From the NCBI GenBank assembly GCA_033239005.1, contig BSQZ01000011.1, forward strand, positions 8,747,501 through 8,811,500: a DNA stretch of 64,000 nucleotides. The letters are read 5' to 3'. The DNA is from Lamellibrachia satsuma (Eukaryota > Annelida > Polychaeta > Sabellida > Siboglinidae). The notes under the pieces were generated by a model. It was not told the DNA's origin. It worked only from the letters and a program-made list of their open reading frames with translations, and made no database searches. Below are positions 22,675 through 64,000 of the stretch, piece after piece. Made by a program: the position numbers and the translations under genes. Position 1 is the stretch's first letter, and each line of letters opens with the position of its first letter.

Positions 22675-22682
22675 AACTATAT

Positions 22683-23327: not shown

Positions 23328-23329
23328 TT

Positions 23330-29620: not shown

Positions 29621-32047
29621 CTACAAACAGACGGACTCATGTGCACTCGAGATGTTTATGCAATGACCATTTGATGTATAATAGTTAAAAATTATGTGAC
29701 AAATAATTGCCCTAATTCACCAAGCAATATCAACATGTACAAGTCAAAAGCTGATAATGTGATCATCAAAATTATTTGTTGATACAATTTGTAGATGAAC
29801 ATTTCCAAGAGATAACAACAGTTAACAGACAGGACGTGTCAGCCCACACAATTCTGATGAACAAGCCAAGAAAGAAAAATGTCTGAGAATACGTAATCAC
29901 CTGTAGAGAAATATATTCAGGGTTAAAAAAATTCATGATTAAAAAAAATCGTATTTAAATCGTATTTTTTATTTATTTGAAATCTGGTATATAGAAGTTT
30001 ATATTTATAAACTCTTTCAAGTGTGTTCTATTCAAATCGATCTGGGTACTTGTCTTAACAGAGGGTACATGATTTTTGCTTATATAAAGACATTAGACAA
30101 TATCCACAAGGCTTCACCTCCTGTAGTTGCATAATCTGTCTTGGAAACGAAAGCATGTTGTGTGTCTGTGGCTGTAGCAGTATATATTGTTTGCTGAGAG
30201 GGTGGATTAGCACCTGTGCAGGGCTGTGTGTACTCTAAGGGTCTCCAACCAGACTGCAAACTGGTACACTATTAAACAATTGTAGCCCAAACTGTCTCAC
30301 TTGAGTCAACATACTGAATTTGTAACAACTAGCACAAGCTCTAAGTGGACTTTAACTCAGGGCTTCCAACTTGAAAAGATACTTCCTCTGGAAGACAAGT
30401 TTGTGTGGCTTCACTGCATTCAGAAAGGGAATAGCTCAAACATACACAATGTCATAAAATGTTTGACTGTCAGGCTATCTGGTGTCAACACAGTTACACA
30501 AGTGTGCGCACTTTGTGCTTTTGTATTAAAAAAACATACAAAACTTTGTTGATCTCGATGCTTGTAAACAATTATTTATGTTAAATTAAGTTAAATTAGC
30601 GATTAAACAAATCGGAAGTAAAAAAATCATAAATCAATTATTTTTTTTGGATTTAAATCAAATGATTTAAATCAAACAACCCTGACTATATCAGAAAATA
30701 CTTTCTACAGATACAGGCTTCAATAGCCAACACTGACCCTCGAGTTTGGTATGCGGACGTCACACCACCTCCCGTCAATCATGTGTCTCTGTGCCAAGCA
30801 CTTCACCTGCGACTCGTACTCATTGAATCGAACGAACCCAAAGCCTTTTGACTGACCAGTCTTTATGTCCTTTTTCACCTGTGTAACATTCACAACCACA
30901 ACATTTTATGCACAAGCTACAAACCAAACACGAACAACAAAGGTAAGTAATAAGTAACTCCCATTGAAAATTACAACATTGAAGAATATACTATTTTTAT
31001 GTATGTTAATCATATATTTGTCTCTCTTACTTTAACTTTTAGTATAGCAGAAAATAGTTCGTTTTTGCAACATTAACCCAATAGAACATAATAAATGCAT
31101 AAGTTAGCATCACGCTTATGTTGATCTAACAGGGACATTTGGTAGCAGTGCAATGTTGCAGCTATATTTTTAAGTTGCATTTAGAAGTTATTTTCTATGC
31201 TTGTTTCAGAAGCATTGTAGCAAACAGCACATTTGGTTCAAATTTCAACAAACCTGAACCATCAGTAGCTCTCCAAACTGCTCAAAATAGCTCTTCAAGT
31301 CCTCTTCGGAGCTTTTCCATGGAAGGCCAAGCACAATGAGGTCGCTGCACTTTTCTCGGTCAATCTTTTTGGTCTTTGCCATAGGGTTCTCTAACCCCTC
31401 GTCACCTTTCCTTTTGTTCTCTGCAACCATCCGATCTGGCAATAGACAATTAAGTTCATGCACATACACAAACAATTGATTTTACATATTATTTATGTTT
31501 CAAACTTGGTTACTAGCCAGTACAAGTATTTTTACATTTCAGCTGAAAAGTTAATTCCAAATTAGGTATCTTTTTAGTTATGTATCTTAAAAACACAAAA
31601 ATTCATACACCAAATATTCATTTACACAATGCAGTTACAACTTACAGAATTTTGTAGCATGTATCAATGTACTAGTTTTACAGGTAACGTAAAAAAAATT
31701 GCAGTAGGCGGCGCATGCGCACTGAAAACAGCACGTGAACACGTTGCGATGAGACATGATTAGCCTAATTATGGTCGTTTAATTGTAGACTTACCATGAC
31801 TTACAACACCTTTTGGAAATACTGCTACATAAACGGTTGATCCCCACATATCGTCTGGAGGGTGCAATTTTCCCTCACACAGTCGGATGGCACGCATGCC
31901 TCCCGTTTCAGGATTTCTGTATTTCAAGCCGCATGCACCTGGAAACTGCGCAGCAAGAGTGGACAACAGGAGACACCCATCATCTTCAATCGGCATTTCG
32001 ATCGGTTCATCTTGTTCATCATCCGTTACTTGTATATACTGATACAT
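28877..32047 (-). CDS. TARDBP: TDP-43 (TAR DNA-binding protein 43) orthologue
   Basis: Gene-level model, minus strand, four coding exons: 32047-31795, 31435-31254, 30878-30738, 29620-28877. Total is 1320 nt, or 439 residues plus stop (human protein 414). Order: ubiquitin-like N-terminal domain (about 1-80), basic NLS (KRKGDE ... KTKK), RRM1 ([14 protein letters not shown]), RRM2 ([14 protein letters not shown]), and a Gly/Asn/Gln-rich low-complexity tail with a conserved helix [14 protein letters not shown]-43 binds UG-rich RNA in the nucleus and controls splicing and stability. Start: the ATG at 32047-32045 aligns with the human start; the upstream TTG is not used. All junction phases match (1-0-0). 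Confidence 0.96.
29918..30684. mobile_element. hAT-like non-autonomous element in TARDBP intron 3
   Basis: The ends CAGGGTT (29918) and AACCCTG (to 30684) are inverted. AT-rich arms repeat GATTTAAATC and AAAAAATC. Flanking 8-mers are AATATATT and ACTATATC, six of eight identical, a weak target-site duplication. No transposase. The ATTTAAATC palindromes near both ends are typical of this widespread group. Confidence 0.6.
30738..30878 (-). CDS. TARDBP: TARDBP coding exon 3: end of RRM1 and linker
   Basis: Acceptor ACACAG (complement of 30879-30884), donor GTCAGT; phases 0 and 0; 47 residues. [21 protein letters not shown] contains RNP1 of RRM1. It continues [18 protein letters not shown], nearly identical to vertebrate TDP-43. 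Confidence 0.95.
31254..31435 (-). CDS. TARDBP: TARDBP coding exon 2: NLS and start of RRM1
   Basis: Acceptor TTGCCAG, phase 1, donor GTTTGT after CAG, phase 0; 61 residues including the split codon. Basic NLS-like ENKRKGDEG and AKTKKIDR, then [20 protein letters not shown] (RNP2 of RRM1) and FGELLMVQ. Confidence 0.95.
31795..32047 (-). CDS. TARDBP: TARDBP coding exon 1: N-terminal domain
   Basis: Starts [19 protein letters not shown] and continues [16 protein letters not shown] and [18 protein letters not shown], the DIX/ubiquitin-like domain that mediates TDP-43 oligomerisation. The donor is GTAAGT after CATG, phase 1. An alternative GTAAGT nine bases earlier would give phase 0 and break the join with exon 2. 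Confidence 0.95.
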
Positions 32048-32120
32048 TTTTGTCGTCGACAATCAATTTCTGAATTGTAACAACGGTATAATTTGTATAG
32101 CTAGATCGCTACAACCTTAA

Positions 32121-33754: not shown

Positions 33755-34486
33755 ATTGTGATCAGGATGCTGTACTAGGTAGAACCACACAAGAAAAGGA
33801 CTTAGGAGTAACATTTAGTGCTGACATGAAAGTTTCAGAGCAATGTGGGATTGCTGCTTCGAAAGGAAATCAAATTCTAGGGTTAATTAGGAGAACTATC
33901 ATGTATAAGGTCAAACAGTAATTGTGCCCTTGTACAAAGCATAGTTAGATCACATTTGGAATATTATATTCGAGCATGGAGGCCTTATCGTAAAAAGGAT
34001 ATAGACAAGCTAGAAAGAATACAACGAAGAGCAACTAAAATGATTCCAGAATTGAGAGACCTTATTATAGTTACGAAAGTCGCTTATTACAATGTGGTTT
34101 GACAACAATATAGAGACCACGAGACTAAGAGGAGACCAAATAGAAGTGTTTAAAATAGTGAACGGTTATGAGGATGTTAACAGGAATATGTTCTTCAAAC
34201 TTAAAGAAGGCAGCAGAACTAGAGGACACAAAACAACATTAGTTAAGGAGCAGTGTAGGTTGGACATGAGAAAGTACTCTTAATTTCTCACAGAGGGTGA
34301 TAAATGAATGGAACAAACTGCAAAATGATTAAGTGTTAATGCTAGTAATGTGAATATATTTAACAATAGAATTACATATATTTGATAATGGCGGGCTACA
34401 CATAGATGAGAAAATTGTTGGACTCTCGATAAGCCAATGGCTTGTTGTTTAGGGTGGCAATCTTGTTAAATCTTGTTAAATCTCTT
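33755..34486 (+). mobile_element. 5'-truncated CR1-type LINE fragment
   Basis: Reads EKDLGVTFSADMKVSEQCG ... IQRRATKMIPELRDL ... RTRGHKTTLVKEQCRLDMRK with stops and frameshifts, then the shared 3' UTR and a short TTGTTAAATC tail at 34452-34484. Same family as 20336-24112. It ends about 150 bp before the LPCAT3 start codon. Confidence 0.9.
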
Positions 34487-40700: not shown

Positions 40701-43700
40701 TGATCACTGGTGCATCAAGAGGTCAACAGTACTTTTTGCATGCCGAGTTGTGTGTGATCACTGGTGCATCAAGAGGTCGACATAAATGTTCGCATGTTAG
40801 GTTGTGTGTGATTACTCAATTTACTGGTGCATCAAGAGGTTGACATAAATGTTTGTATGTCATCTATGTGATCACTGTTGCTTCAGCAGGTCAACGTAAT
40901 AGTGCACTGAGAGATTGACAGAACTGTTTTTATGTCAAGTAATGTTGCGAAGGAACATCATAATTAAATTTAAATTGCGCTAGTAAAAAGCTCAATGGTT
41001 TATTTTCCCACAGCTATTCATCATTGACGTTGCAGCTTTGCATGAACCGAGAACATGTTATTTGTTGTGCAGGATACCCACTTGCATTCTTCCATCGATA
41101 CTTCCTCTATGGCAAAGCGCCGGATCTACAACATACGTATTTTGTCATCACCGGATTGTCGCTGGGCTACTTCAACTTTGGTGAGTTTATGACTACCGAC
41201 TAAAGAGATTGTACTGTTATCATGCTTCCCATGCCCCAGGGTGACATAAACATACCCTTGTCCTCCATTGTTGTGCTGCCTGGTACGCTGACTATAGCCT
41301 TAAATGCTAGATCTTCTCAGTATGTCTATAGTATAAAGTAGTTAAACTACTAGTTTGTGTCTGTTCCCTCATATCTCTGTCAGTTTCCCATTTTGTATGC
41401 GTGCCCTGGGGATTGTTGGTACATTAAAAAATTTTTTCAAAATTCCCCCAGGGTGGGGATATTACGAAGGAGCTTATGTGGATGTTTGACGTCGGTTATG
41501 TAACTCTTACGTGATAATATAGGAGTTCATCATTACATGCAATTGTTTTCTATGATTGTCCCTAGTTACGTAATCTATGTCAAATGTCTACACATAAGTT
41601 CCTTTGTATGGTATGAATATTTCATGAAACCAGCATGATTTCTGGGGCATGAAGTAGTCATAGCTATTGGCATTGTCCTACCAAACTTTTACTGAGTAGT
41701 GGCGTAGTGCAGGGAGTAATATGCTCTTGCAATGGCTGCCTTTTCTCCGTGCAGTGCCGGGCAACTTGGCTAGTATTGTCTAAATTTTTTCACCTTGCTG
41801 TATTTTTGAGCACCATCCTGGGTCCACTGCCAGGATGAAAATAATCATCTCTGTAGCGTGTGGATATGTTGTATCGTATTAATATGTTGTATTGTATTAA
41901 TATGTTGTATTGTATTAATATGTTGTATTGTATTAATATGTTGTATTGTATTAATATGCAGCTGAAGTGTCAAATATTGGGCAAGGCATTGCATTTTGCG
42001 TTTTACATGAAATATGCAAAATGTACGATTTAGAGTTACCAGTTTCCGTATTTGTACACCACAATAATGCATGCTGAATGTTACATAATATAAGTCCTAT
42101 GCGCACTTAATATGATAACTATGACTTCATCTTGGCTAGAACTTTGTACTTTAACTTGTGAGTACTTACGTATACATTGAAATTTGCATTATATTCAGGC
42201 CAGAGTGGTAACACAGTATACAAGAGGGTTAATTTAACCTGCACTAAATTGATTTTGTTGAGGCCAGTGCTGCAATAAGCCTGTATTAAACTAAGCTTTA
42301 ATTAGTATAGTCCAGATTGAACTGGATTTAACGGAAATATGGATCCAGTCATATTGCCCTTTATGCAACCATGTCATGCTGACAAAAATGGTAAATAAAT
42401 TAATTTCTCTAGATCCAAAGTTCACAGATGCCTAGCCGCAACTAATTGGAACTAATCTAAACTGACAAACCATATTTCTTCTAGGACAGTCAAAGAAACT
42501 GACAAAATATTTGTGGAACTGGGCTGGTGTGAATGTGTATGAGTGGAGTCACGAAAAATGGAACAGTTGTGTAAAAATTAGGAGTGAGTAATTTTCTTTA
42601 CTAAAATAATTTCTTTCCCATATAATGTTGTAATATGGGGTTGAAAGTGTACTAAGGTGATAAGTAAAACTTACTGCCTGGTTTTTATTATATTGGATGA
42701 TAAAATAGACCATTCACATTTTTGTGTCGCATATGTCATACTTATAAATCTATGTCTCCTACAAAAGTTTCCACAATGACAATTCTTTGCTTGTAGAAGT
42801 GTATTATGATGGTAGTGATCCGAAAAATAGAAATGTTAGGTTTTCTATCGAAACTATCGAATGATAGTGCTGAGAGTGCAAAATTGTGTCCCTTGAAAAT
42901 CCAGATGGAAAAGTTCCACTCAACATAATTTTTTTGGACAGAGAAATAAATTAACTGTCTGGTTATGTTCTACACCTCACACCTCACTCAGCATACCTCA
43001 CACCTCACTCAGCATACCTCACACCTCACTCAGCATACCTCTCATTGGGCACTGATTTTCATAGATTCCATTATACAGGACAAAAACCTGTGTGACAGAT
43101 GCGACATTAATTGTAAGACATGACATAAACGACAAGGTAAATCAAATGAATTTTTATTTTCAAACTATACTTGGTTGAGATGTTGGCTTACATGATTAAG
43201 ATCACTTTCTTTTTCACAGAATATAAAGACTATTACTTTAATGAACATAGTAATACCTGGAAATCTAACTACTTGTAAATTGGTATTACCAATCTTCTCA
43301 TAATGGCATTCAAAGCAGCTATCTTACTTTCAACATTCGTGTGCTTGCGACAGGCGCATTGAATATGATCACCGAACCTTGGGATCCTCACATTAGGCAG
43401 ACGGAATTTCTTGAATATTGTGAACTTGTAAGGGAAGGCTGGATTTTCATCTTGCAAGATTCTGTATGCATCTTCAACTGTCATGCTCAGAAGATACTTT
43501 GCCTTGTGTTGTTTGAAAGCAACCAACACTGTTTTCCCTGGTACAGCTCTGCTTATGTCTTCTCTGAAGAAGAAATCCTGGATTTGATTCATCCATAGTG
43601 GGGAAACCTTGCCTTTTCTAAATTTGTCAGTCCCAGAGAGCGTGCTAATATCCCTGTACACTTTGTCTCTACAGCCAGTGTCTTAGCAATTTTTTTTTTA

Positions 43701-46700: not shown

Positions 46701-49700
46701 TTGATGTTTTTGGGTTCCACCCTTGTTTTTGATTATTTCCATGTTGCATTGGATAAATTGCAACTGTTCGTTAATTAAATTCTCTATTTTAGTCAAGAAA
46801 GCCCTTTGGATTACAGTTTAAATCTTTGCCCTTGGATTACAGTTTAAATCTTTGCCATTGGATTACAGTTTAAATCTTTGCCATTGGATTACAGTTTAAA
46901 TCTTTGCCATTGGGTTACAGTTTAAATCTTTGCCATTGGATTACAGTTTAAATCTTTGCCATTGGATTACAGTTTAAATCTTTTCCCTTGGATTACAGTT
47001 TAAATCTTTGCCATTGGATTACAGTTTAAATCTTTGCCATTGGATTACAGTTTAAATCTTTGCCCTTGGATTACAGTTTAAATCTTTGCCATTGGATTAC
47101 AGTTTAAATATTTGCCCTTGGATTACAGTTTAAATCTTTGCCCTTGGATTACAGTTTAAATCTTTGCCATTGGATTACAGTTTAAATCTTTGCCATTGGA
47201 TTACAGTTTAAATCTTTGCCATTGGATTACAGTTTAAATCTTTGCCATTGGATTACAGTTTAAATCTTTGCCCTTGGATTACAGTTTAAATCTTTGCCCT
47301 TGGATTACAGTTTAAATCTTTGCCCTTGGATTACAGTTTAAATCAGTGGAGCTAACGTCACTTAGATCAGATCGATCAATGTGTGCATACTTTCATACTA
47401 TGTTATATAGTAATAGTAAACATAATTACTTTTCATAACACACAACACTGACATAAAAGCATTGTTATGATGTATAAAATTGAAATGATAATCAAAATAA
47501 CCTGTTACTTTTTCTGTTGCTCTTTCCTGTTACCTTTTCCCCAGTATTTTTTTATGTGACTTTTTTTGTTACTTTCTTTCCTGTGTTCCACATTTGAGAC
47601 AGCTTTATCATCTGACTCTAATGTTGCGTGACTTGTGTAAGTACTCTTGGACAGCATTTTGTGTTAAAATCCTTAATAAACTACAATCAGTAACATTCTT
47701 CTACGCAGGCCCTTAGCCAGGTACCCGTCTGCCCGTCATGATGACAGGCAAATGTCTTACGACGACGGGTAAGATAAAACAAAAGACGGGTTTTTCTTTT
47801 TACAAGATGAAATGTTTTCATAATAAAATTGTTTAAGCTGCCTTAGACTTAGTGACTCTTAGTCTCGCTTATCTGACTCGGCTTCGTGAGTCCGCCGAGA
47901 ATAGAAGATGCGTGCGACAAATGGTGGCGCTACAGTGCGGAGCCAGGATAATAGAGGCTAAGTGACTCTTAGCGCACGCGGTCGTGATTTGACAAATGTT
48001 GTCAGCAGCAGAATAGCGAATACCGGCGATCTATAAGACAATACGTTGATATTGTTGGAAAATAATGATACTGCGGTTGATCTCTATTTATTGCAATCGT
48101 GTACGTCATTGGTTGGGAAACGCGTTTCCATGGGCTTTCTCGGTGCCTATCCATTGGCGCTCTCATTTGAAGAAACAATCCTTTGACCCGGATGTCGTGG
48201 GGCGAGTTCAAAATGGCACCTGTCAAGCGTGTGAAAAGATGCGACATGTCAACGTCAAAGTTCACGACAATCGATGCCTTTTTCGTAAACGTGAATAAAA
48301 GCAGCGTTCCTGCGATTGTCCCTGAACAGTCCGAGTCAGCATCCTTTGTTGTATCGGTGGAGATCCATAATGTTGATGTGCCTGCCGCTAGTAACCGAGA
48401 CACTACTGTATTGTCGCCCACTGCTGGTACTTTGCAGTGGCCAAACGCAATCGCAGTAGACTTCAAAACTGAATCTGATTCGGACTCCAATTCATCTACA
48501 TAACTGGCGTGTAGGCCCTACTAGCAGCAGCAGTTTCCCGGATCCTCAATTCAAACGACAGGCAAACCACGAACAATTAGGCTGTGCTCAGTCTAGTAAA
48601 TTCATTTGTTTTGTTGTCCAATAGCCAATACCTAATCCGGATGATTGCTTTTTTTATCAAAGAAGTAATGTTTCAATGTATTACTTTCAAAACCAGTTGT
48701 ATTACTGAGTGCTGTATCTTCTATTTTTATTTGTTGTATTGCTTTACTTTTAGTGTCAACATTTGATTTTGAGCGTGATTATAATCATATTTGTTCATAT
48801 TAGATGTATTTGCATGCATGTACTTAAAGTCTTAAGACCCTTCAAACATTACTTCCATGTTTATATATTTAAAATAAAGTTTCAAGTTACTTTTTCACAA
48901 ACCTTCATATGTTGGCCCTTCTTCTGTTATTATTACAATGCAGGTGATAACGCCAACCTCGCTGCACAACTAGTAAGACTCGATTGGGCCAATAATGGTT
49001 AAACAGACTTGGCCTGCCATTGAAAAGACAATTGGGCCAATAATGGCTGCAATTTAACATTTTCTCAATTTGAATTGGCTTACCAGTACAAAAAAGCAAA
49101 TGGGCCTATAATGACTGTCGTTATATCAACCAGCATTGGCTTACCACTGAAAAATCAATTGGGCCAATAATGACTGTCATAGATACGCTTTTCGTTTTTT
49201 TAGAATATTCAAGACTGGCAACATTTTATTTCTGCCTAAGGGCATGCTTCTGTGATCAGGAGGGAAATATTTATTTATTTTTTGGATATTTCCAGTGAAC
49301 ACCGTGTCTTCATTGTATGGTCCACTGATTAAACTTAAAGACTGTCAAATTGCATGCCACAAAATCGGCACATGGGGCCTGGCGGCTATCAGTCTGTTGA
49401 CAACAACCAAATTAATTACTGATGTAACTAATTATTTATTAATGTGTTTAACAATGTCAGCTCCAGTGAATTGACAATCAATGAATCTCAAGATGTCCAG
49501 CATGTTTGTGTGCACACACCTGGTCAAATTGTGTTCTTGTATCCACTAGCAGCCACCACTCCAGGGTATTAATTAACTGGCTTTGGTTAATCAGTCTTAG
49601 GGATCATCTCAATACATCAATGTTTGATGCTCAATGAAACCAATGTCTTTGAACATACGACCCCTCCTCCCCCCCACATGAAACTTTGAATTACTGTATT

Positions 49701-52700: not shown

Positions 52701-55591
52701 TGTTGTTTTCCCTTTAACTGTGGTCTGACCCCTCATGATCTACCCTGTGACTGTGTTTGGTAATAGTGGTGTTAAGGTGTTTGTCATCCCTGGTGCTCTC
52801 TGCATAATCACTGGTGGTACTGCATCATCCCTTGTGGTCCCAGCATCATCCCTTTTGGTCCCAGCATCATCCCTTGTGGTCCCAGCATCATCCCTTGTGG
52901 TCCCAGAGGTATCCCTATTGGTTGTTGTATGGATCTGACCTTCGTTTTAAATGCCCATGCTGATCTGACCACTGAGAGATGTACTAATGGCAAACATTGA
53001 GGATACTGAATATTTGCTGCACCGTAGAGGCCATGAACAACGAGGTTGTTGGCTTGACATGTGGCAGGGTCCAAACCACTGTTTTGCTGCACCCCCGTTG
53101 TCTCCTGGAGGTGCTAAAAGGTCATTCATTAGTTCAATATTTCGCTCATCACGTTTTAGAATCATTCCCCAAAAAATCAGACCTGTCTAGTAGCCACTAT
53201 GACATGCTAGCTCTAGTATCCACTATGACATGCTAGCTCTAGTATCCACTATGACATGCTAGCTTCAGTATCCACTATGACATGTAGCTCCAGTATCCAC
53301 TATGACATGCTAGCTCCAGTATCCACTACGACATGCTAGCTCCAGTATCCTCTACGACATGTAGCTCCAGTATCTACTACGGCATGCTAGCTCCAGTATC
53401 CTCTACGACATGCTAGCTCCAGTGTCCTCTACGACATGTAGCTCCAGTATCTACTATGACATGCTAGATCCAGTATCCTCTACGACATGCTAGCTCCAGT
53501 ATCCTCTACGACATGTAGCTCCAGTATCTACTACGACATGCTAGCTCCAGTATCCTTTACGACATGGTAGCTCCAGTATCCACTATGACATGCTAGCTTG
53601 TTTGTGCAAGCATGTTATTTATTTTTAATGAAATCGTTGGACAGACTATTAAATAATTTTTTTATTTGGATCTGGTCAAAATTCTGCTAAAAACAGCAAA
53701 AGTGGTCTGGTTCAATGTACTATGAAGTAAGGATATTCACACTTTCACAAAGAACCCAATCTATTGATCAATGCCTGTCTACGATTTTAACAAAAGTGTG
53801 CAACTATTTATGCAGTACAGATATGAACATGATTTGTAATGGACTGTGTGAAGAGGGAGTTTTAATTAATGTCTGTCCATGTTCCAGGTCCACAGGTCCT
53901 CCATACAGCTGTCAACATTCTCATGATCTATGTCATACTGCGCGTCGCTGGTGGAACGTTCGCATCCATCATTCTCAGCTTCACAATAAACATGGTAAGT
54001 GTCGTGGCTTCCTGCTTCCTACCTCTGTCCACTCCATGGTTTGTCTTCATTAGTGAATATCAATAACACTGAGTGCTTGTGTACTGTCTCTACCACAGTG
54101 CATACAGTACCGACCTTGTTATCTCACCTTTTACCTGCAGACATGGAGTCAATTTCATTATATCGTTTCCAGTTCCAACTTATTAATATCAGTTTCAATT
54201 CCAATTACATCTCAAAAATACCAATTCCAATTGCAAAATACCAATTCCAAATGGAAATAGCGGTGTGAACAGAGCAACCACACTCAAAGCCCAAATACAA
54301 TATATTCCAGAGCAGCTTTAATTAATTTCTACATACTATGGTAGATAATGACAGACAAATATATGCTATATACTATATTTTATTGATCGTTTTTAACGAA
54401 TAATTTGAGTTAAAAAAGTTTTTTTTTAAAGTAATTGAAAATTCCAGTTACTTTTAAAAATAAAACACAAAATACAATTCCGGAATTGGAATTGGTGTTT
54501 CAATTCCACATACAATACAATACTATACAATACAATGTAATTGACCCCAAGTATTTGGGTCCTAACACAGTGCGTGTTATAACAACATCCTAACCAGACC
54601 TGGGGCCAATGTTCTCGGTACTCGTGTACTCGAGTACATTTTTGAAGTACTTGTACCCGTGGAAATTATGGGTCATGTACTCGTACTCAATGTACTCAGA
54701 TTTTTTAGGAGTGCATTTGAATAGTTTTTTAATTTTATGATGTTGTGATAATTATCTATGACTTTATTTTAAATACAGTTTTATCAAGTGTTTGTCGTTA
54801 ACGTAATGAAAATATTTTTAACTTAAATACTTCCATAAAGTATCTGAAATGTTCAGATACATTATTTCTGATTGATATAATAAAACTAACTAAACGCTTC
54901 ACTAAAGAATGCATCTTTTTCCAGTCAGAAACCCATAGTTAGCCTTAGCAAACAGTTATGTTAGTAACCAGTTCAGGCTGTAATCACTGTCTTTGTTTAA
55001 TTAAGCCAGGAAGTCCATAATGACAGGGCACCGATTTGTTGCTCATACAAGGGACAGTGTTAAGAACTAACTGAGTCTATTTCTATGTTGATTCAAGTCA
55101 CACATCACCAATAGTCTTTATTCAAATTAGCACACAAGTACACCCTTTGTTCCAGTTTGGACAACTCTTCTTCTAATTCTGGGGCGACCAATAAATGCAG
55201 TCTGTTAAAGTACTTGTCTAATGGTTATATTTGTTATTGTAATAAATAAATTATTATTGTTAGATTATGCACCTGTTGTACTGTTTTGTATTATTGCTTA
55301 ATAAGCTTCATATTGTGTACTATGCAGAGTAAACCGGAATTTAAGCTGTCTGATTTGTGAAACCAGGTGCTCAACATGTTCTTTGTAAAAGTCTGTTTGT
55401 AGTGAGCAGATCATGGCTCTCTACATCATGGGTGTTTGCGGGGGGGGGGGCAAGGGGGCACCCCCCCTGATCTGGATGTGGAATTTTTTTCTGACGTATA
55501 TTCGTGAGCTTAAAGTATATGTTAACTTTACATCTTGTGTGTGCGTGTGTGTGTGTGTGCGTGCGTGCGTGCGTGTGTGTATTATACAAGA

Positions 55592-55651
<60 letters not shown>

Positions 55652-58600
55652 CATATATATATATATATATATTTCTTTTTTGCCTCTCCCTGGAAAAATT
55701 CCTTTAATTAAATGCTCCTGCTTTACATAGTCTATAAATCAGATGGTGGTCAGATGATAAGTGCAATAAACAGGCAAAACTACATCTAGGGCCTGAGAGA
55801 GCAGAGATAAGAGAAGTGATAAACAAAGAAAAGCAGTCCTTGAGGTTTCAGGTGAGAAATCCTTTGATGCCTCAGGAAATAAATAATATTTATTGTATTG
55901 TATTGTATTGTATTCAGCTCCAACAGGTCCAAAGACCGAGTAACAGGACTGATAACAAATGAGGACGCCAATGAACATCTTAATGCCCTAATGTACTGAT
56001 TCTTGTACTCGGCCATCACCAATGTACTTGTACTCATCCATCACCAATGTACTCATACTCATCCATCACCAATGTACTCGTACTCGTACTCATCCATCAC
56101 CAATGTACTCATTGTACTCGTACTCATCCATCACCAATGTACTCATACTCATCCATCACCAATGTACTCATACTCGTACTCATCCATCACCAATGTACTC
56201 ATACTTGTACTCATCCATCACCAATGTACTCATACTCATCCATCACCAATGTACTCATACTCATACTCATCCATCACCAATGTACTCGTACTCGTACTCA
56301 TCCATCACCAGTGTACTCATACTCATCCATCACCAATGTACTCATCCATCACCAATGTACTCATACTCGTACTCATCCATCACCAATGTACTCGTACTCG
56401 TACTCATCCATCACCAATGTACTTGTACTCATCCATCACCAATGTACTCGTACTCATCCATCACCAATGTACTCGTACTCGTACTCATCCATCACCAATG
56501 TACTCATACTCGTACTCATCCATCACCAATGTACTTGTACTCATCCATCACCAATGTACTCGTACTCATCCATCACCAATGTACTCGTACTCATCCATCA
56601 CCAATGTACTCATACTCATACTCATCCAGCACCAATGTACTCGTACTCATGCATCACCAATGTAATCGTAATCGCACTCATCCATCACCAATGTACTTGT
56701 ACTCGTACTCATTCATCACCAATGTACTCATACTCGTACTCATCCATCACCAATGTACTCATACTTGTACTCATCCATCACCAATGTTCTCGTACTTGTA
56801 CTGATGAAAAGGTACTCGGACCCAGGTCTGATCTTAACAAAGGAATTTGATTACCTGAGGATGTGTGAAATAGAGTGTGCCCAGTTCCTAAGCAGATCTG
56901 GGATCAATTCTTAATTGAATTGGAATTGAATTAATAACAATTAAAATAGATTGAATTGGAATTGAACTCTGCAAAGAAAGTTGAATTTAATTAATTGATC
57001 AATCTGTATATGATGGTTCATTTTTCTACGTAAATTTATACATGTAGACATCGGAATATGTCACAATGTAGTTACTCTTAAGACTGACTTCCATTTAAAA
57101 TGAAAGAGTTTATCTTGAAGTCAATAGAGATTTTACCACCTGCTCGAAGTAAACATGTAGCACTGGTCTGTCTGCATAGATCTGAAACCATGTCCTTTGT
57201 GGGACAACACAATAAAGGGGAGCAATAGGCCTGCAAATCCTTGAGCAGGTATTTTCTGAAGCCAAAATCTTAACAACATACAGATCTTCCCTTGTTGTTT
57301 GAATACTGGCTTAGCCATTGTCTATGCGCAGTGCACTGCTCTCTGCTTTGTACCAGATATACTAGCAGTTGGAATAAGATGCAAACAAAATATGATAGTA
57401 ATGGACTATTATAATGTAAAATAGCTTTATTATAAAATACTATTGTGATTAGCTTTGAACTAATAAAAAATATTGTTGTACTGAACAATGATGGTTGATT
57501 TTAACTGAGCAGTGTTTGCACTATGCTGTAACCTGTACATCAGATGCGAGTTGCAAATGCTGCTTGAGCATTAGTTTTGTCATTTTGAAGTTAGTATACT
57601 ATCTATAGAGTTTGATATGTAATGCATGTGTTAACTGGTAATAATATTTCTGCCACTAGACAGTGCTACTATTAAAAGCTTCCACTATGCAGCATAGTAT
57701 TAACTAAGTACTGTTGCTAATTGGCGATTTGAATTGGAATTTATTAAAATTAAATAGAATTAGAATGGATCCTTTTGTCAGTACATTGAATTGCATTGGA
57801 ATTGATCTTTTATAAATATGTTTTGATTTAACAAGGCACATGCCTGTGAAAGTTGACAGACAAGAGTGTTCAACTGATATTTTTGCGACCGCCATCGTTA
57901 TGCTACCGCATCGTCAAGCAGTCATCTTTTTTTTTCTTCAAAAGTTAAAGAGCAATTGTCAAGAGTCCAACACCATTACATTCGTCGTTAAATTATTTAC
58001 CATATGTGCAACATTTATGAAAATGTTTTGATTTGACGAGGCACCTGCCCATGAAAGTTGACAGGCGAGCGTTCGACTGACATTTTCGTGACTGCCATCG
58101 TTGCCTGTGTGACCCAGTAAATTTTATTTTCGTCTTACTTGCTTTATTTGCACATGTATTAATATATGATAAATAACGATGTTTACTAGAAATGAATCCA
58201 CAAATGATCAACGCTAATTAAAGAATGGCATATTTCTGTAGGTCCTCTGCACTCCTCCCCCATGACATGATGGACTGACCCGCCTATGATCACGTGCAGT
58301 GCCTAGCTTGGACTAGCCTATTATTATCTAGAGGGGTGGTATTGTAATTCTGTCTTTTTAAGCCGTAATACTAATAGTTCAGTTTTCTTACTCTGTTTGT
58401 TGATTGTTCTAAATGTTAATCTGAATTGCAATTTGAAAAGTTTGAGTTCATTTTAAGTTTGGATTTGATATCAGTGTCCTATGGTTGGATTGCAGGATGT
58501 ACATACAGTCTCACTAAAAATAAAATGAAATAAAAAATTCAGTTCAACTCAGTAAAACTTGTTTTTTATTGTCGACATATAACAGTAATCTTCCATTTGT

Positions 58601-61600
58601 CCATATTTTTGTGTTTGTCTGAATGCCATTTTTCTAAGTTATTTACACCCCTGCTTATTTAAAGCTTTCAAAATCACACATTTTGCTATTTTTCAAAGCA
58701 ATATATCTCAAAATCTGTTTGACCTACCCTAATGATATTGTGTGTACACATTACTTGTATACCAGTCTCTGAATATTGAACGTGATTCTGATTGACCCAT
58801 AAATTAAAAAGTTATGTCATGCTGAATATCATTTTTTGAAAATCCTTGCCCTGTGTATAAACAATACCACTTTAGAAACCTTTATGTTAATTGTTAGTGT
58901 TATGCTGATTATAATATGTTCTACAGTTGTATGTGGTCTCACTGGTCTGTGTTCCAGGTTTATTTATAGTTGTATGTGGTCTCACTGGTCTGTGTTCCAG
59001 GTTTATTTATAGTTGTATGTTGTCTCACTGGTCTGTGTTCCAGGTTTATTTATAGTTGTATGTGGTCTCACTGGTCTGTGTTCCAGGTTTATTTATAGTT
59101 GTATGTGGTCTCACTGGTCTGAGTTCTAGGTTTATTTATAGTTGTATGTGGTCTCACTGGTCTGAGTTCCAGGTTTATCTATTGTTGTATGTGGTCTCAC
59201 TGGTCTGTGTTCCAGGTTTATTTATAGTTGTATGTGGTCTCACTGGTCTGAGTTCTAGGTTTATTTATAGTTGTATGTGGTCTCACTGGTCTGTGTTCCA
59301 GGTTTATTTATAGTTGTATGTGGTCTCACTGGTCTGTGTTCCAGGTTTATTTATAGTTATATGTTGTCTCACTGGTCTGTGTTCCAGGTCTATTTATAGT
59401 TGTATGTGGTCTCACTGGTCTGTGTTCCAGGTTTATTTATAGTTGTATGTGGTCTCACTGGTCTGAGTTCTAGGTTTATTTATAGTTGTATGTGGTCTCA
59501 CTGGTCTGAGTTCCAGGTTTATCTATTGTTGTATGTGGTCTCACTGGTCTGTGTTCCAGGTTTATTTATAGTTGTATGTGGTCTCACTGGTCTGAGTTCT
59601 AGGTTTATTTATAGTTGTATGTGGTCTCACTGGTCTGAGTTCCAGGTTTATTTATAGTTGTATGTGGTTTCACTGGTCTGAGTTCCAGGTTTATCTATTG
59701 TTGTATGTGGTCTCACTGGTCTGTGTTCCAGGTTTATTTATAGTTGTATGTTGTCTCACTGGTCTGTGTTCCAGATTTATTTATAGTTGTATGTGGTCTC
59801 ACTGGTCTGAGTTCCAGGTTTATTTATAGTTGTATGTGGTCTCACTGGTCTGAGTTCCAGGTTTATTTATAGTTGTATGTGGTCTCACTGGTCTGTGTTC
59901 CAGGTTTATTTATAGTTGTATGTTGTCTCACTGGTCTGTGTTCCAGGTTTATTTATAGTTGTATGTGGTCTCACTGGTCTGTGTTCCAGGTTTATTTATA
60001 GTTGTATGTGGTCTCACTGGTCTGTGTTCCAGGTTTATTTATAGTTGTAGGTGGTCTCACTGGTCTGAGTTCCAGGTTTATCTATTGTTGTATGTGGTCT
60101 CACTGGTCTGTGTTCCAGGTTTATTTATAGTTGTATGTGGTCTCACTGGTCTGAGTTCCAGGTTTATTTATAGTTGTATGTGGTCTCACTGGTCTGAGTT
60201 CCAGGTTTATTTATAGTTGTATGTGGTCTCACTGGTCTGTGTTCCAGGTTTATTTATATTTGTATGTGGTCTCACTGGTCTGAGTTCCAGGTTTATTTAT
60301 ATTTGTATGTGGTCTCACTGGTCTGAGTTCTAGGTTTATTTATAGTTGTATGTGGTCTCACTGGTCTGAGTTCCAGGTTTATTTATAGTTGTATGTGGTC
60401 TCACTGGTCTGAGTTCTAGGTTTATTTATAGTTGTATGTGGTCTCACTGGTCTGAGTTCCAGGTTTATCTATTGTTGTATGTGGTCTCACTGGTCTGTGT
60501 TCCAGGTTTATTTATAGTTGTATGTGGTCTCACTGGTCTGAGTTCTAGGTTTATTTATAGTTGTATGTGGTCTCACTGGTCTGAGTTCCAGGTTTATTTA
60601 TAGTTGTATGTGGTTTCACTGGTCTGAGTTCCAGGTTTATCTATTGTTGTATGTGGTCTCACTGGTCTGTGTTCCAGGTTTATTTATAGTTGTATGTTGT
60701 CTCACTGGTCTGTGTTCCAGGTTTATTTATAGTTGTATGTGGTCTCACTGGTCTGAGTTCCAGGTTTATTTATAGTTGTATGTGGTCTCACTGGTCTGAG
60801 TTCCAGGTTTATTTATAGTTGTATGTGGTCTCACTGGTCTGTGTTCCAGGTTTATTTATAGTTGTATGTTGTCTCACTGGTCTGTGTTCCAGGTTTATTT
60901 ATAGTTGTATGTGGTCTCACTGGTCTGTGTTCCAGGTTTATTTATAGTTGTATGTGGTCTCACTGGTCTGTGTTCCAGGTTTATTTATAGTTGTAGGTGG
61001 TCTCACTGGTCTGAGTTCCAGGTTTATCTATTGTTGTATGTGGTCTCACTGGTCTGTGTTCCAGGTTTATTTATAGTTGTATGTGGTCTCACTGGTCTGA
61101 GTTCCAGGTTTATTTATAGTTGTATGTGGTCTCACTGGTCTGAGTTCCAGGTTTATTTATAGTTGTATGTGGTCTCACTGGTCTGTGTTCCAGGTTTATT
61201 TATATTTGTATGTGGTCTCACTGGTCTGAGTTCCAGGTTTATTTATATTTGTATGTGGTCTCACTGGTCTGAGTTCCAGGTTTATTTATAGTTGTATGTG
61301 GTCTCACTGGTCTGAGTTCCAGGTTTATTTATAGTTGTATGTGGTCTCACTGGTCTGTGTTCCAGGTTTATTTATAGTTGTATGTTGTCTCACTGGTCTG
61401 TGTTCCAGGTTTATTTATGGTTGTATGTGGTCTCACTGGTCTGTGTTCCAGGTTTATTTATAGTTGTATGTGGTCTCACTGGTCTGAGTTCCAGGTTTAT
61501 CTATTGTTGTATGTGGTCTCACTGGTCTGTGTTCCAGGTTTATTTATAGTTGTATGTGGTCTCACTGGTCTGAGTTCCAGGTTTATTTATAGTTGTATGT

Positions 61601-64000
61601 GGTCTCACTGGTCTGTGTTCCAGGTTTATTTATAGTTGTATGTGGTCTCACTGGTCTGTGTTCCAGGTTTATTTATAGTTGTATGTGGTCTCACTGGTCT
61701 GTGTTCCAGGTTTATTTATAGTTGTATGTGGTCTCACTGGTCTGAGTTCTAGGTTTATTTATAGTTGTATGTGGTTTCACTGGTCTGAGTTCCAGGTTTA
61801 TCTATTGTTGTATGTGGTCTCACTGGTCTGTGTTCCAGGTTTATTTATAGTTGTATGTGGTCTCACTGGTCTGAGTTCCAGGTTTATTTATAGTTGTGTG
61901 TGGTCTCACTGGTCTGTGTTCCAGGTTTATTTATAGTTGTGTGTGGTCTCACTGGTCTGAGTTCCAGGTTTATTTGTTGTTGTATGTAGTCTCACTGGTC
62001 TGTGTTCCAGGTTTATTTATTGTTGTATGTGGTCTCACTGGTCTGTGTTCCAGGTTTATTTGTTGTTGTATGTTGTATCACTGGTCTGTGTTCCAGGTTT
62101 ATTTATTGTTGTATGTTGTCTCACTGGTCTGTGTTCCAGGTTTATTTATTGTTGTATGTGGTCTCACTGGTCTGTGTTCCATGTTTATATATTGTTGTAT
62201 GTTGTATCACTGGTCTGTGTTCCAGGTTTATTTATTGTTGTATGTGGTCTCACTGGTCTGTGTTCCATGTTTATATATTGTTGTATGTTGTATCACTGGT
62301 CTGTGTTCCAGGTTTATTTATTGTTGTATGTTGTCTCATTGGTCTGTGTTCCAGGTTTATTTATTGTTGTATGTTGTATCACAGGTCTGTGTTCCAGGTT
62401 TATATATTGTTGTATGTGGTCTCACTGGTCTGTGTTCCAGGTTTATATATTGTTGTATGTTGTCTCACTGGTCTGTGTTCAAGGTTTATCTATTGTTGTA
62501 TGTTGTCTCACTGGTCTGAGTTCCAGGTTTATTTATAGTTGTATGTGGTCTCACTGGTCTGTGTTCCAGGTTTATTTATAGTTGTATGTTGTCTCACTGG
62601 TCTGTGTTCCAGGTTTATTTATGGTTGTATGTGGTCTCACTGGTCTGTGTTCCAGGTTTATTTATAGTTGTATGTGGTCTCACTGGTCTGAGTTCCAGGT
62701 TTATTTATAGTTGTGTGTGGTCTCACTGGTCTGTGTTCCAGGTTTATTTATAGTTGTGTGTGGTCTCACTGGTCTGAGTTCCAGGTTTATTTGTTGTTGT
62801 ATGTAGTCTCACTGGTCTGTGTTCCAGGTTTATTTATTGTTGTATGTGGTCTCACTGGTCTGTGTTCCAGGTTTATTTGTTGTTGTATGTAGTCTCACTG
62901 GTCTGTGTTCCAGGTTTATTTATTGTTGTATGTGGTCTCACTGGTCTGTGTTCCATGTTTATATATTGTTGTATGTTGTATCACTGGTCTGTGTTCCAGG
63001 TTTATTTATTGTTGTATGTTGTCTCACTGGTCTGTGTTCCAGGTTTATTTATTGTTGTATGTGGTCTCACTGGTCTGTGTTCCATGTTTATATATTGTTG
63101 TATGTTGTATCACTGGTCTGTGTTCCAGGTTTATTTATTGTTGTATGTGGTCTCACTGGTCTGTGTTCCATGTTTATATATTGTTGTATGTTGTATCACT
63201 GGTCTGTGTTCCAGGTTTATTTATTGTTGTATGTTGTCTCACTGGTCTGTGTTCCAGGTTTATTTATTGTTGTATGTTGTATCACAGGTCTGTGTTCCAG
63301 GTTTATATATTGTTGTATGTGGTCTCACTGGTCTGTGTTCCAGGTTTATATATTGTTGTATGTTGTCTCACTGGTCTGTGTTCAAGGTTTATCTATTGTT
63401 GTATGTTGTCTCACTGGTCTGTGTTCCAGGTTTATTTATTGTTGTATGTTGTCTCACTGGTCTGTGTTCCAGGTTTATTTGTTGTTGTATGTAGTCTCAC
63501 TGGTCTGTGTTCCAGGTTTATTTATTGTTGTATGTTGTCTCACTGGTCTGTGTTCCAGGTTTATTTATTGTTGTATGTGGTCTCACTGGTCTGTGTTCCA
63601 GGTTTATATATTGTTGTATGTTGTATCACTGGTCTGTGTTCAAGGTTTATCTATTGTTGTATGTGGTCTCACTGGTCTGTGTTCCAGGTTTATATATTGT
63701 TGTATGTGGTCTCACTGGTCTGTGTTCCAGGTTTATATATTGTTGTATGTTGTCTCACTGGTTTGTGTTCCAGGTTTATTTATTGTTGTATGCATGTTGT
63801 CTCACTGGTCTGTGTTCAAGGTTTATCTGTTGTATGTGGTCTCACTGGTCCGTGTTCCAGGTTACTCTATTGTTGTTTGTGGTCTCACTGGTCTGTGTTC
63901 CAGGTTTATCTATTAATCGGGTACTACAGGAACATGACTGGTGAATACAATATTGCGTGGACGACACCTCACTGCGTACTTACGTTGCGGCTCATTGCCC
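34638..64000 (+). CDS. LPCAT3: Lysophospholipid acyltransferase 5 (LPCAT3/MBOAT5), 5' part
   Basis: Gene-level model: exons 34638-34731, 41073-41180, 53888-53994 and 63904 to beyond the window, phases 1-1-0. About 134 residues are visible, aligning without gaps to the start of LPCAT3: a short hydrophilic N terminus, GYPLAFFHRYFLYGK, TGLSLGYFNFG, LHTAVNILMIYVILRV, and YYRNMTGEYNIAWT. The catalytic His and the MBOAT core lie downstream of the window. LPCAT3 is an ER multipass enzyme that transfers polyunsaturated acyl groups to lysophosphatidylcholine and related lysolipids (Lands cycle). The introns are 6.3, 12.7 and 9.9 kb, full of repeats, the last one ending in a 5-kb minisatellite. Confidence 0.93.
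36430..36810. repeat. Direct repeat inside the 3.9-kb element
   Basis: The segment around 36435-36500 (AGACGCCTGCTGACAGCAG ... CACCACC) recurs at 36730-36810 with about ten differences. Confidence 0.7.
37306..37455 (-). CDS. Exon-like frame, SGNH-like start (transposon cargo?)
   Basis: Starts MTTVIIGASQIKYLHCN, continues TLSFSGYKIEEL and INSAFSQFE, then a good donor (TTGAG/GTAAGA) at 37305. The IIGASQ and SFSG pattern resembles block I and the following strand of SGNH-type hydrolases (GDS replaced by GAS). No second exon found. It lies inside the inverted-repeat element, so it may be part of that element's gene. Function unknown. Confidence 0.4.
37900..38092. repeat. Tandem repeat of about 70 bp, 2.5 copies
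   Basis: The unit contains GTGAAAGTGGATTCACAAGT, AATCTGACCATTACAGAGCA and ACATTTACAAAGAA. It lies inside the 3.9-kb element. Confidence 0.85.
39471..40030 (-). pseudogene. hAT/ZMYM-like transposase N-terminal fragment, copy 1
   Basis: On the minus strand: KMSKLTTIDAFFANKSS, then six copies of the 9-residue VVPSTSFVT (27-bp DNA unit GTAACAAAGGATGTGGAAGG plus CACCACT on +), then HNVNVPGPSNRDTTVLSPTAG. The Ser/Thr-Ile-x-x-FF start is typical of ZMYM-type hAT transposase relatives. Upstream 5' sequence (39873-40030) matches copy 2 (48002-48203). No catalytic core, so a fragment or MITE-like derivative. Confidence 0.6.
40690..40925. repeat. Degenerate tandem repeat, unit about 54-60 bp, four copies
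   Basis: Each copy includes GTTGTGTGTGATCACTGGTG and CATCAAGAGGT(C/T)(A/G)ACA. LPCAT3 intron 1. Confidence 0.8.
41073..41180 (+). CDS. LPCAT3: LPCAT3 exon 2
   Basis: Acceptor TTGTGCAG at 41065-41072, donor GTGAGT at 41181; phases 1 and 1. Encodes YPLAFFHRYFLYGKAPD, LQHTYFVITGLSLGYFNF, closely matching the vertebrate 'GYPFALFYRHYLFYK ... TFTGLSIAYFNFG' segment between the first two membrane helices. Confidence 0.95.
41862..41957. repeat. 18-bp minisatellite, five copies
   Basis: Unit GTTGTATTGTATTAATAT. LPCAT3 intron 2. Confidence 0.9.
42971..43041. repeat. 21-bp tandem repeat, three copies
   Basis: Unit CTCACACCTCACTCAGCATA plus C. LPCAT3 intron 2. Confidence 0.9.
43269..44048 (-). pseudogene. 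Broken gene of an uncharacterised mobile-element-linked family
   Basis: Two frames on the minus strand follow each other with a frameshift between 43698 and 43661. The first (44048-43698) is basic and coiled: KVRERQRKWTEKLNENSQ, EIRKKDATQHRKNRDAKW. The second (43661-43269) has WMNQIQDFFFREDISRAVPG, YLLSMTVEDAYRILQDENP, FKKFRLPNVRIPR and CACRKHTNVESK. This order (ERQR-rich start, FF-D-SR motif, a 'RP-NV' strand and C-x-C-x2-H-x-N) recurs in numerous uncharacterised invertebrate and fish proteins that spread as repeats. I cannot name the superfamily. It lies in LPCAT3 intron 2, antisense. Confidence 0.55.
44185..44490 (+). mobile_element. Dispersed non-autonomous repeat, copy C
   Basis: Same family as 8261-8540 and 17560-17822: GATATCCAAATTGG, GGGCGTGACC, the central palindrome AATGCTTGAACAAGCATT (changed on both arms relative to B), TGCACAAACGAGCTAGCATG, GTTGCAATGGATACTTGG. 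Confidence 0.75.
44491..46790. other. Intronic sequence of LPCAT3
   Basis: No gene recognised. A short frame with an acceptor (complement of about 44933) reads VSVLKSSDLRVKIVQKV and a stop. It could be part of the mobile gene at 43269-44048 but nothing confirms this. Confidence 0.4.
46795..47345. repeat. 26-bp minisatellite, about 21 copies
   Basis: The unit is GGATTACAGTTTAAATCTTT plus GCC(C/A)TT. Copies are almost identical, differing mainly at CCC versus CCA. LPCAT3 intron 2. A homologous locus with a single unit lies at 51055-51110. Confidence 0.97.
47706..48503 (+). mobile_element. hAT/ZMYM-like fragment, copy 2
   Basis: The left end CAGGCCCTTAGCCAGG (47706) is typical of hAT terminal repeats. 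Within it, 48204-48503 reads MAPVKRVKRCDMSTSKFTTI, DAFFVNVNKSSVPAIVPEQS, VEIHNVDVPAASNRDTTVLS, paralogous to copy 1 at 39471-39872 but without the 9-residue expansion. It then goes to a Ser/Asp-rich end and a stop. No right terminal repeat found. Confidence 0.55.
48940..49185. repeat. Degenerate tandem repeat, unit about 65-70 bp
   Basis: Each copy includes CAATTGGGCCAATAATG(G/A)CTG and a TTGGC(T/C)TACCA(C/G)T motif. LPCAT3 intron 2. Confidence 0.7.
49186..50689. other. Intronic sequence of LPCAT3
   Basis: No gene recognised. 50325-50390 has short ACCCCACTGGACA-type repeats. An acceptor-like site at 49298 is followed by 48 open codons, but they do not match LPCAT3. Confidence 0.4.
50690..50915. 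repeat. Tandem duplication of about 119 bp
   Basis: TGAGCATTAAAGAA(A/G)ATCAT ... CATCCC(C/T)TGAAGTGCAATC ... CAAAATACATATTATTAT occurs twice in direct orientation. Confidence 0.85.
51030..51290. repeat. Unexpanded homologue of the 46795 minisatellite locus
   Basis: AAAGCCCTTTAGATTATAGT, ATAAATCTGTGGAGCAAACG and CGATGTGTGCATA match both flanks of 46795-47345, with one single repeat unit in between. The match continues through TTTCCTGTTACCTT. A dispersed repeat of unknown family. Confidence 0.75.
51300..52815. other. Intronic sequence of LPCAT3
   Basis: AT-rich. Nothing recognised. Confidence 0.4.
52820..52918. repeat. 21-bp minisatellite, about 4-5 copies
   Basis: Unit GCATCATCCCTTGTGGTCCC plus A. 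Confidence 0.9.
53188..53600. repeat. 26-bp minisatellite, about 16 copies
   Basis: Unit GACATGCTAGCTCCAGTATC plus CACTAT, with variants CTCTAC, CTACTA and a one-base shorter GACATGTAGC form. It ends about 290 bp before LPCAT3 exon 3. Confidence 0.95.
53888..53994 (+). CDS. LPCAT3: LPCAT3 exon 3
   Basis: Acceptor CATGTTCCAG at 53878-53887, donor GTAAGT at 53995; phases 1 and 0. Encodes PQVLHTAVNILMIYVILRV, AGGTFASIILSFTINM. It aligns with the vertebrate segment QLYHSLLCIVLQFLILRLMG ... TTFCFQM, the next membrane helices of the MBOAT fold. Confidence 0.95.
55540..55675. repeat. (GT)n/(GTGC)n and (AT)n microsatellites
   Basis: A GTGTGCGTGC run followed by about 80 bp of (AT)n with two CATAC breaks. 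55440-55450 is a G homopolymer. They lie inside the hAT-like element. Confidence 0.95.
55990..56812. repeat. Minisatellite of GTACTC(AT/GT) and CATCCATCACCAAT units
   Basis: About 30 copies of a composite unit: CATCCATCACCAATGTACTC followed by one to three ATACTC or GTACTC hexamers, giving lengths of 24, 30 or so. All three forward frames stay open through the array, which argues against coding. Confidence 0.95.
56831..58920. other. Intronic sequence of LPCAT3 with a duplicated segment
   Basis: 57821-57905 and 58022-58105 are direct repeats of about 80 bp (TGTTTTGATTTAACAAGGCA ... GAAAGTTGACAG ... GCCATCG). 56905-56990 is rich in GAATTGGAATT. No gene recognised. Confidence 0.6.
58925..63903 (+). 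repeat. 43-bp minisatellite built from the LPCAT3 exon 4 splice acceptor, about 115 copies
   Basis: The unit is CTCACTGGTCTGTGTTCCAG followed by GTTTATTTATAGTTGTATGT and GGT. The last unit runs into the real acceptor: CACTGGTCTGTGTTCCAG then GTTTATCTATT, the start of exon 4. Two subtypes exist: 'TTATAGTTG' (mainly 58925-61960) and 'TTATTGTTG' (mainly 61970-62510 and 62780-63830). Subtype order shows higher-order duplications of 946 bp (22 units) and 817 bp (19 units). Because 43 is not a multiple of three, the open frames in it are not proteins. Confidence 0.98.
63904..64000 (+). CDS. LPCAT3: LPCAT3 exon 4 (cut by window end)
   Basis: Acceptor TGTGTTCCAG at 63894-63903, phase 0. Encodes VYLLIGYYRNMTGEYNIAWT, TPHCVLTLRLIA, matching the vertebrate AYLLAGYYYTATGNYDIKWT segment followed by MPHCVLTLKLIG. 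Its first 11 bases are shared with the 43-bp repeat unit. Confidence 0.95.

Follow-up and report, generated by a model that had tools for sequence, protein, structure and literature searches.

The window, a 64,000-nucleotide stretch of genomic DNA, carries on its plus strand exons 2 to 4 of a gene resembling LPCAT3, and the intron between exons 3 and 4 of this gene ends in a tandem array of 43-bp units whose last member is the genuine 3′ splice site (Table 1). When run on the window, Tandem Repeats Finder (TRF) reported this array at 58925-63913 with a period of 43, 116.0 copies and 94% matches; an array of 116 copies cannot be a product of chance. A preliminary description, made from the letters alone, had placed an array of about 115 copies at 58925..63903. 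The array is real, but it comprises 116 units, the real splice site included (that is, 115 decoys), and it ends at 63913, the repeat continuing 10-11 nt into exon 4, beyond 63903.

That the final unit is the genuine exon boundary, as the preliminary description had proposed, is confirmed by the reading phases of exons 3 and 4, which agree, and by the likeness of exon 4 to LPCAT3. Specifically, exon 4 matches solved LPCAT3 structures (7ewt, E 1.1e-8), as does exon 2 (E 3.3e-8), and exon 3 was located through its likeness to human LPCAT3 (E 1.9e-4, 27% identity). Exon 4 starts at 63904 with GTT TAT CTA TTA in phase 0, and we take this boundary to be right because phase 0 matches the end of exon 3, although the preceding TTCCAG would read Phe-Gln in frame. 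Exon 5 continues from exon 4 in phase, pieces of additional LPCAT3 exons lie downstream, and exon 4 used as a query gave one match in the genome. The 43 nt that precede the real AG hold no further AG, and at the position where the decoys carry their candidate donor unit 116 reads GTTTGT.

Table 1 Features of the LPCAT3-like locus in the window (a slash marks a splice boundary).
Feature	Position	Strand	Remarks
LPCAT3-like exon 2	41073..41180	+	ends G/GTGAGT, phase 1; acceptor set by eye at CAG/GATACC
LPCAT3-like exon 3, 107 nt	53888..53994	+	ends ATG/GTAAGT, phase 0
Intron 3, 9,909 bp	53995..63903	+	array makes up 4,979 bp (50%) of the intron
43-bp tandem array	58925..63913	+	116 units, each with ~32 nt from the end of the intron and 11 nt from the start of the exon
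Exact 555-bp repeat	59776..60330	+	the array underwent a recent block duplication, with the second copy lying 946 bp (22 units) further downstream
Irregular units 114 (47 bp) and 115 (40 bp)	63774..63860	+	directly before the last unit
Unit 116, the genuine 3′ splice site	63861..63903	+	AG at 63902-63903; nearest upstream AG 43 nt off
LPCAT3-like exon 4, 132 nt	63904..64035 (window ends at 64000)	+	donor AGA/GTATGT

Units were delimited by splitting the array at AG, which gave 114 units of 43 bp, one of 47 bp and one of 40 bp (n=116); 111 of the 116 end in AG and five in AT. The unit had been described as holding a branch-point-like CTCAC, an acceptor and about 11 bases of exon, and it does: CTCAC puts its A at position -17 in the main form of the unit, an A stands at -17 in 116/116 units, and the start of exon 4 agrees with the GTTTATCTATT variant of the unit over 11 nt. 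The repeat unit thus spans the exon-intron boundary in register with exon 4, as do minisatellites of the ‘mirage’ type. In addition to the 555-bp block of Table 1, a second exact block repeat of 276 bp is found within the array at an offset of 903 bp (21 units). Identity to the consensus is 93.5-97.7% per ten-unit block and 87.6% in the last six units, a figure that was calculated without gaps, so that both irregular units score low. The exon-proximal units are the most diverged and irregular and the distal edge is clean, a pattern of concerted evolution in which boundary units escape homogenisation at the exon edge only. An open frame of 369 codons runs through the array in the frame of exon 4 from 62893 to 63999, at the window end, and encodes a hydrophobic 43-residue repeat; the unit form TTTATAG introduces a TAG and the form TTTATTG does not.

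Decoy acceptors and donors

Comparison of the 115 decoys with the real site over positions -20..+3 indicated that 55 are identical to it, 46 differ by one base and 14 by two, in keeping with the earlier statement that over a hundred near-identical decoys lie upstream of the true acceptor. Because 55/115 are identical, no acceptor score computed over -20..+3 can separate the decoys from the real site. Over the longer spans -32..+3 and -20..+11, none of the 115 decoys is identical to it.

A GT lies 14 nt downstream of the decoy AG in 113/115 decoys, and among 113 full-length units, a count that excludes unit 1, the exact GTATGT is present in 105, such that many units carry both AG and GT splice signals, again as in minisatellites of the mirage type. 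The preliminary description took this GTATGT for a usable donor; the GT is there, but its usability is doubtful. We estimated donor strength as the predicted energy of the duplex with U1, using a crude model, and compared it with that of 2000 random 9-mers containing GT. The main decoy donor, GTT/GTATGT (101/115), is predicted to pair with U1 at -1.9 kcal/mol, and 49% of the random 9-mers are equally good (their mean is -2.2 kcal/mol), as against -8.8, -8.9 and -4.6 kcal/mol for the real donors of exons 3, 2 and 4, respectively. Two of the 115 decoys have GTAGGT, predicted at -4.8 kcal/mol. The proposal that each unit could act as a 14-nt microexon is weakened accordingly, and we rejected donor-armed microexons of this kind: their main donor is no better than about half of random GT 9-mers in this model, and 60 of the 113 candidates contain an in-frame TAG.

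If the decoys were joined to exon 3 and read through, a stop would follow at codon 4 in 61/115 and within 50 codons in 83/115, and each of the four closest to the exon would cause a frameshift. Seven of the 115 decoys (those 5, 8, 11, 14, 17, 20 and 23 units upstream) are in frame and free of stops to the window end, so not all decoy use would be fatal.

Origin of the array

To determine where else the unit occurs, we searched the assembly that contains the window (735,336,914 bases in 279 contigs). An 86-base query, in a search that skips very common words, gave 74 matches, all within the array. With as many as 3 mismatches allowed, a 26-base pattern spanning the acceptor matched the genome at 116 places in the forward direction and at none in reverse; the reversed-pattern control gave 0, and the window alone gave 116. 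Since the window accounts for all 116 genome matches, no copy of the unit was found outside the array by this pattern search of the 735-Mb assembly at up to 3 mismatches.

The exonic part of the unit encodes conserved residues. Among 98 LPCAT3 homologues that fit the pattern (drawn from 120 of 625 listed, with 22 left out; the named ones are vertebrates), the start of exon 4, V-Y-L-L in the window, has Tyr in 98/98, Leu in 98/98 and then Leu in 78/98 or Met in 20/98. Where the window has V-Y-L-L-I, T-Y-I-L-V is found in a relative that is 83% identical over 36 residues. The exon sequence accordingly predates the array, into which it was copied; together with the restriction of the unit to the LPCAT3 locus, this indicates that the array grew in place and did not arrive as a satellite. 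At the level of sequence, these analyses show the origin of the array to be local and exon-derived, as had been suggested when the array was described as having grown out of the splice site itself.

A protein search with the open frame of the array returned 2 proteins, one of which, P0241, comes from a 1.13-Mb contig of another assembly. P0241 is 91% identical to the exon-proximal end of the array over 97 residues, both irregular units are common to the two, and P0241 continues with the repeat where the window enters the exon. On sequence likeness, and if it too lies beside LPCAT3, the P0241 array may be an allelic version, or the ortholog in a close relative, that differs in its number of units, which would be in keeping with length variation.

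Upstream of LPCAT3, at 28877-32062 on the minus strand, lies a TDP-43-like gene, whose protein has as its best named relative that of the annelid Paralvinella, followed by Octopus and Lingula, with no Branchiostoma among the 120 of 657 matches listed. Judged by these relatives, the host is likely to be an annelid or some other lophotrochozoan, and amphioxus, a candidate on account of the literature on mirages, was set aside. The linkage of the two genes may be conserved: one relative of each, P0123 (TDP-43) and P0242 (LPCAT3 exon 4), is listed on a contig that is 189307 long in both cases.

Repeats at other exon boundaries

Two further boundaries of the LPCAT3-like gene lie in repeats downstream of the window. 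The donor of exon 5 is repeated as CTTAGTTGGTCCATTG/GTAAGTACCGGGA, 29 bp x 3.2, at L009:1300-1392 (64800-64892 on the scale of the window); the unit consists of 16 nt of exon, encoding the end of FLVGPL, and 13 nt of intron, and it supplies donors. The acceptor of exon 7 and the first 29 nt of that exon fall inside a 378-bp tandem duplication, with 373/378 positions identical, at L009:4519-5273 (68019-68773 on the same scale), which is a very recent decoy. A 21-bp repeat near exon 8 does not cross the boundary and was set aside.

To examine boundaries in other genes, we assembled a sample of kinase exons from 30 top matches and 20 further stretches, six of which are nested in others, leaving 44 distinct loci and 220,515 bp. 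At one of these (L050:1014-2999), about 55 copies of a 36-bp unit run up to the acceptor of an exon that matches ribosomal S6 kinase (RSK) alpha (6g76, E 6.6e-29), the unit reading TGTAG/CATATTGTTAACT and the real acceptor CCCTAG/CATACTGCTGAACT. The likeness of unit and exon is moderate: once the acceptor was included, 21 and 9 out of 5000 shuffles were as good, for a locus that was itself picked from the kinase sample. With the 24 nt of exon only, it is weak, 940/5000 shuffles being as good (7/9 anchored bases agree, P 0.0013). Judged by this likeness, the RSK-like gene is likely to hold a further boundary repeat on the acceptor side. Arrays beside kinase exons at L059 and L052 were rejected as boundary arrays, as they leave 28 and 23 nt between array and exon, and a 16-bp TATG-rich repeat at L033:1895-2045 was rejected as a mirage: it starts at the GT of an apparent kinase-exon donor, as the human ABCA7 repeat considered below does, without exon sequence in its unit. 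The assembly thus contains several splice-boundary repeats.

Overall, repeats stay out of exons and are not drawn to splice sites. In the 44 kinase loci, where the ends of a match only approximate the ends of the exon, arrays cover 8 of 21,513 bases inside the matches (0.04%), 14/980 at 1-10 nt from them (1.4%), 88/1,960 at 11-30 nt (4.5%) and, at greater distances, 6.2-9.4% per bin. Arrays make up 28.5% of the LPCAT3 region (31 kb), in which 3/16 examined exon ends, some of them approximate, lie in repeats. With no enrichment at exon edges in either data set, the boundary arrays appear to be those products of a genome-wide minisatellite process with which splicing can cope.

Minisatellites occupy ~15% of the window, further examples being 72 bp x 13 (3025-3968), 26 bp x 21 (46806-47344), 26 bp x 16 (53189-53598) and 31 bp x 27 (56025-56802). 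The window also holds, on the minus strand at 20455-23345, open frames that by eye resemble the reverse transcriptase and endonuclease of a retrotransposon without long terminal repeats (non-LTR) and, on the plus strand at 33887-34283, a fragment of a similar non-LTR-like element. A search of Rfam gave no match above the gathering score.

Interpretation and comparison with known systems

We consider it probable that half of intron 3 is filled by a splice-boundary minisatellite, or mirage, that arose in place and is for the most part carried along neutrally, with decoys spliced at a low rate. The founding event would have been a local tandem duplication of ~43 bp across the intron 3 acceptor, taking in ~32 intronic nt together with 11 nt of exon 4. 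The copy number would then have risen to 116 through slippage and unequal exchange, which would also have kept the units alike; the block repeats within the array point to such growth. The gene would stay functional with the exon-proximal site as the true one, defined jointly with exon 4 and its donor; such exon definition is expected because intron 3 is 9.9 kb long. The decoys would be without a good donor in register, and most use of them would lead to a frameshift or a stop and hence to nonsense-mediated decay. On the whole, the array seems to be a by-product, tolerated in a genome rich in minisatellites, and not a device for splicing.

Several observations weigh against this account. Nearly half of the decoys equal the real site over -20..+3, and the seven in-frame, stop-free decoys described above could be used without the loss of the message on which the account relies. 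The relative P0242 has just 5 residues upstream of exon 4, too few to reveal an empty site, and the functionality of the LPCAT3-like gene is itself an inference from a partial gene model without exon 1.

We regard as rather unlikely, though as the likeliest of the alternatives, the possibility that the array tunes LPCAT3, with decoys competing with the real acceptor such that a longer array yields more frameshifted and decayed transcripts. In its favour are the 55 decoys that equal the true acceptor over -20..+3 and the branch-like A present in every unit, and there is a precedent in the variable number tandem repeat (VNTR) of human ABCA7, the length of which correlates with skipping of exon 19 (PMC5954066). 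Retention of one unit of that VNTR in RNA is, however, independent of its size according to the same source, mirages in amphioxus reportedly leave regular splicing undisturbed (PMC3087553, PMC3902484), and the decoy donors of the LPCAT3 array are weak by predicted U1 pairing.

We give still less credence to a model in which splice-boundary arrays are common in this lineage and the spliceosome reliably picks the exon-proximal unit from among more than a hundred nearly equal sites, not on acceptor strength, which could not tell them apart, but through exon definition, perhaps helped by RNA folding that would mask the AGs of the array and free the last one, with an occasional in-frame decoy adding hydrophobic, array-coded sequence to the enzyme. 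When local folding is predicted with pairing limited to spans of 40-120 nt, none of the 17 proximal decoys tested is as open as the true AG, and shuffling the exon abolishes this openness (0.52 for the real sequence against a mean of 0.14 over 15 shuffles at span 120). When pairing may span 200 or 400 nt, the predictions have the true AG closed (0.05 and 0.03, respectively), with 12/17 and 9/17 decoys as open or more so. We therefore rejected folding as the site selector, the effect being fragile and gone at longer pairing spans, and regard it as a lead only.

A targeted process, in which tandem amplification in this genome would be brought about by the splice sites as such, is very unlikely. 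Such targeting might be suspected from the three LPCAT3 exon ends that lie in repeats and from the likely further case in the RSK gene, but array cover is not raised at exon edges in the kinase loci, and the 3/16 in LPCAT3 (19%) falls short of the 28.5% of that region that is array. Also very improbable is that the units are recursive (ratchet) sites, AG/GTTTAT serving both as an acceptor and as a regenerated donor for the stepwise removal of intron 3. AG/GT junctions are present in most units, but known ratchet sites have a strong donor of the GTRAGT type, which AG/GTTTAT does not supply: after joining, ATG/GTTTAT is predicted to pair with U1 at -2.6 kcal/mol, as against -8.8 for the exon 3 donor, and 38% of the 2000 random GT 9-mers are equally good. 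On this predicted pairing we do not count the units among recursive splice sites. Finally, the insertion of a dispersed, acceptor-bearing satellite whose last unit became the splice site, conceivable in so minisatellite-rich a genome, is close to refuted by the exon part of the unit, which encodes a conserved motif, and by the genome search, in which 116/116 matches belong to the array and none to the several unrelated loci that define such a satellite.

The probable passenger array offers a natural experiment on acceptor choice, with 55 decoys identical over -20..+3, set mostly in 43-nt steps before one real exon; in the RNA of one animal, the strength of the preference for the exon-proximal site could be read off from position alone. 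The array further suggests that repeats of this boundary-spanning type, described in lancelets, occur in another phylum and that one gene can hold several of them, which bears on intron growth and on intron gain by duplication.

Human repeats at splice sites differ from the array in the side of the intron on which they act. The VNTR in intron 18 of ABCA7 has 25-bp units, ~12 to 427 of them, with the first GT being the donor of exon 18 (PMC5954066); there the repeat is on the donor side and the first unit is the real one, whereas the LPCAT3 array is on the acceptor side, its last unit is real and exon sequence lies within the unit. In the IFI6 (6-16) minisatellite, also human, repeat units serve as splice donors (Turri et al. 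1995, as cited in PMC4526556), whereas those of the LPCAT3 array are acceptors. We accordingly do not place the array, which supplies a 3′ splice site, in the class of donor-side splice VNTRs. Intron gain through tandem duplication of sequence containing AGGT, which is named in PMC3087553, likewise involves a duplication across AG/GT; the LPCAT3 array differs in lying inside an existing intron, with no new intron shown.

The closest counterparts are the mirage minisatellites of amphioxus, described for Adh3 and for the globins BflGb6 and BflGb9 (PMC3087553) and also cited for PGBD5 and troponin C (PMC3902484). According to PMC3087553, their units are 10-72 bp in Adh3 and 150-160 bp in the globins, a range that includes the LPCAT3 unit; there are acceptor-side and donor-side cases; concerted evolution spares the edges of the clusters, much as at the exon edge of the LPCAT3 array; and splicing is normal by reverse transcription PCR. 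The two differ in host, the amphioxus mirages being from lancelets and the LPCAT3 array probably not, and in copy number, 116 as against 6 and 3 in two BflGb6 haplotypes (PMC3087553). In searches of open-licence papers in PubMed Central, we found no acceptor-side array of comparable size. The LPCAT3 array is of the mirage kind and is larger than the globin cases given in that source; what is new here is the number of copies, the apparently annelid-like host, the two additional boundary repeats that this gene carries at the exon 5 donor and the exon 7 acceptor and, likely, one in the RSK gene.
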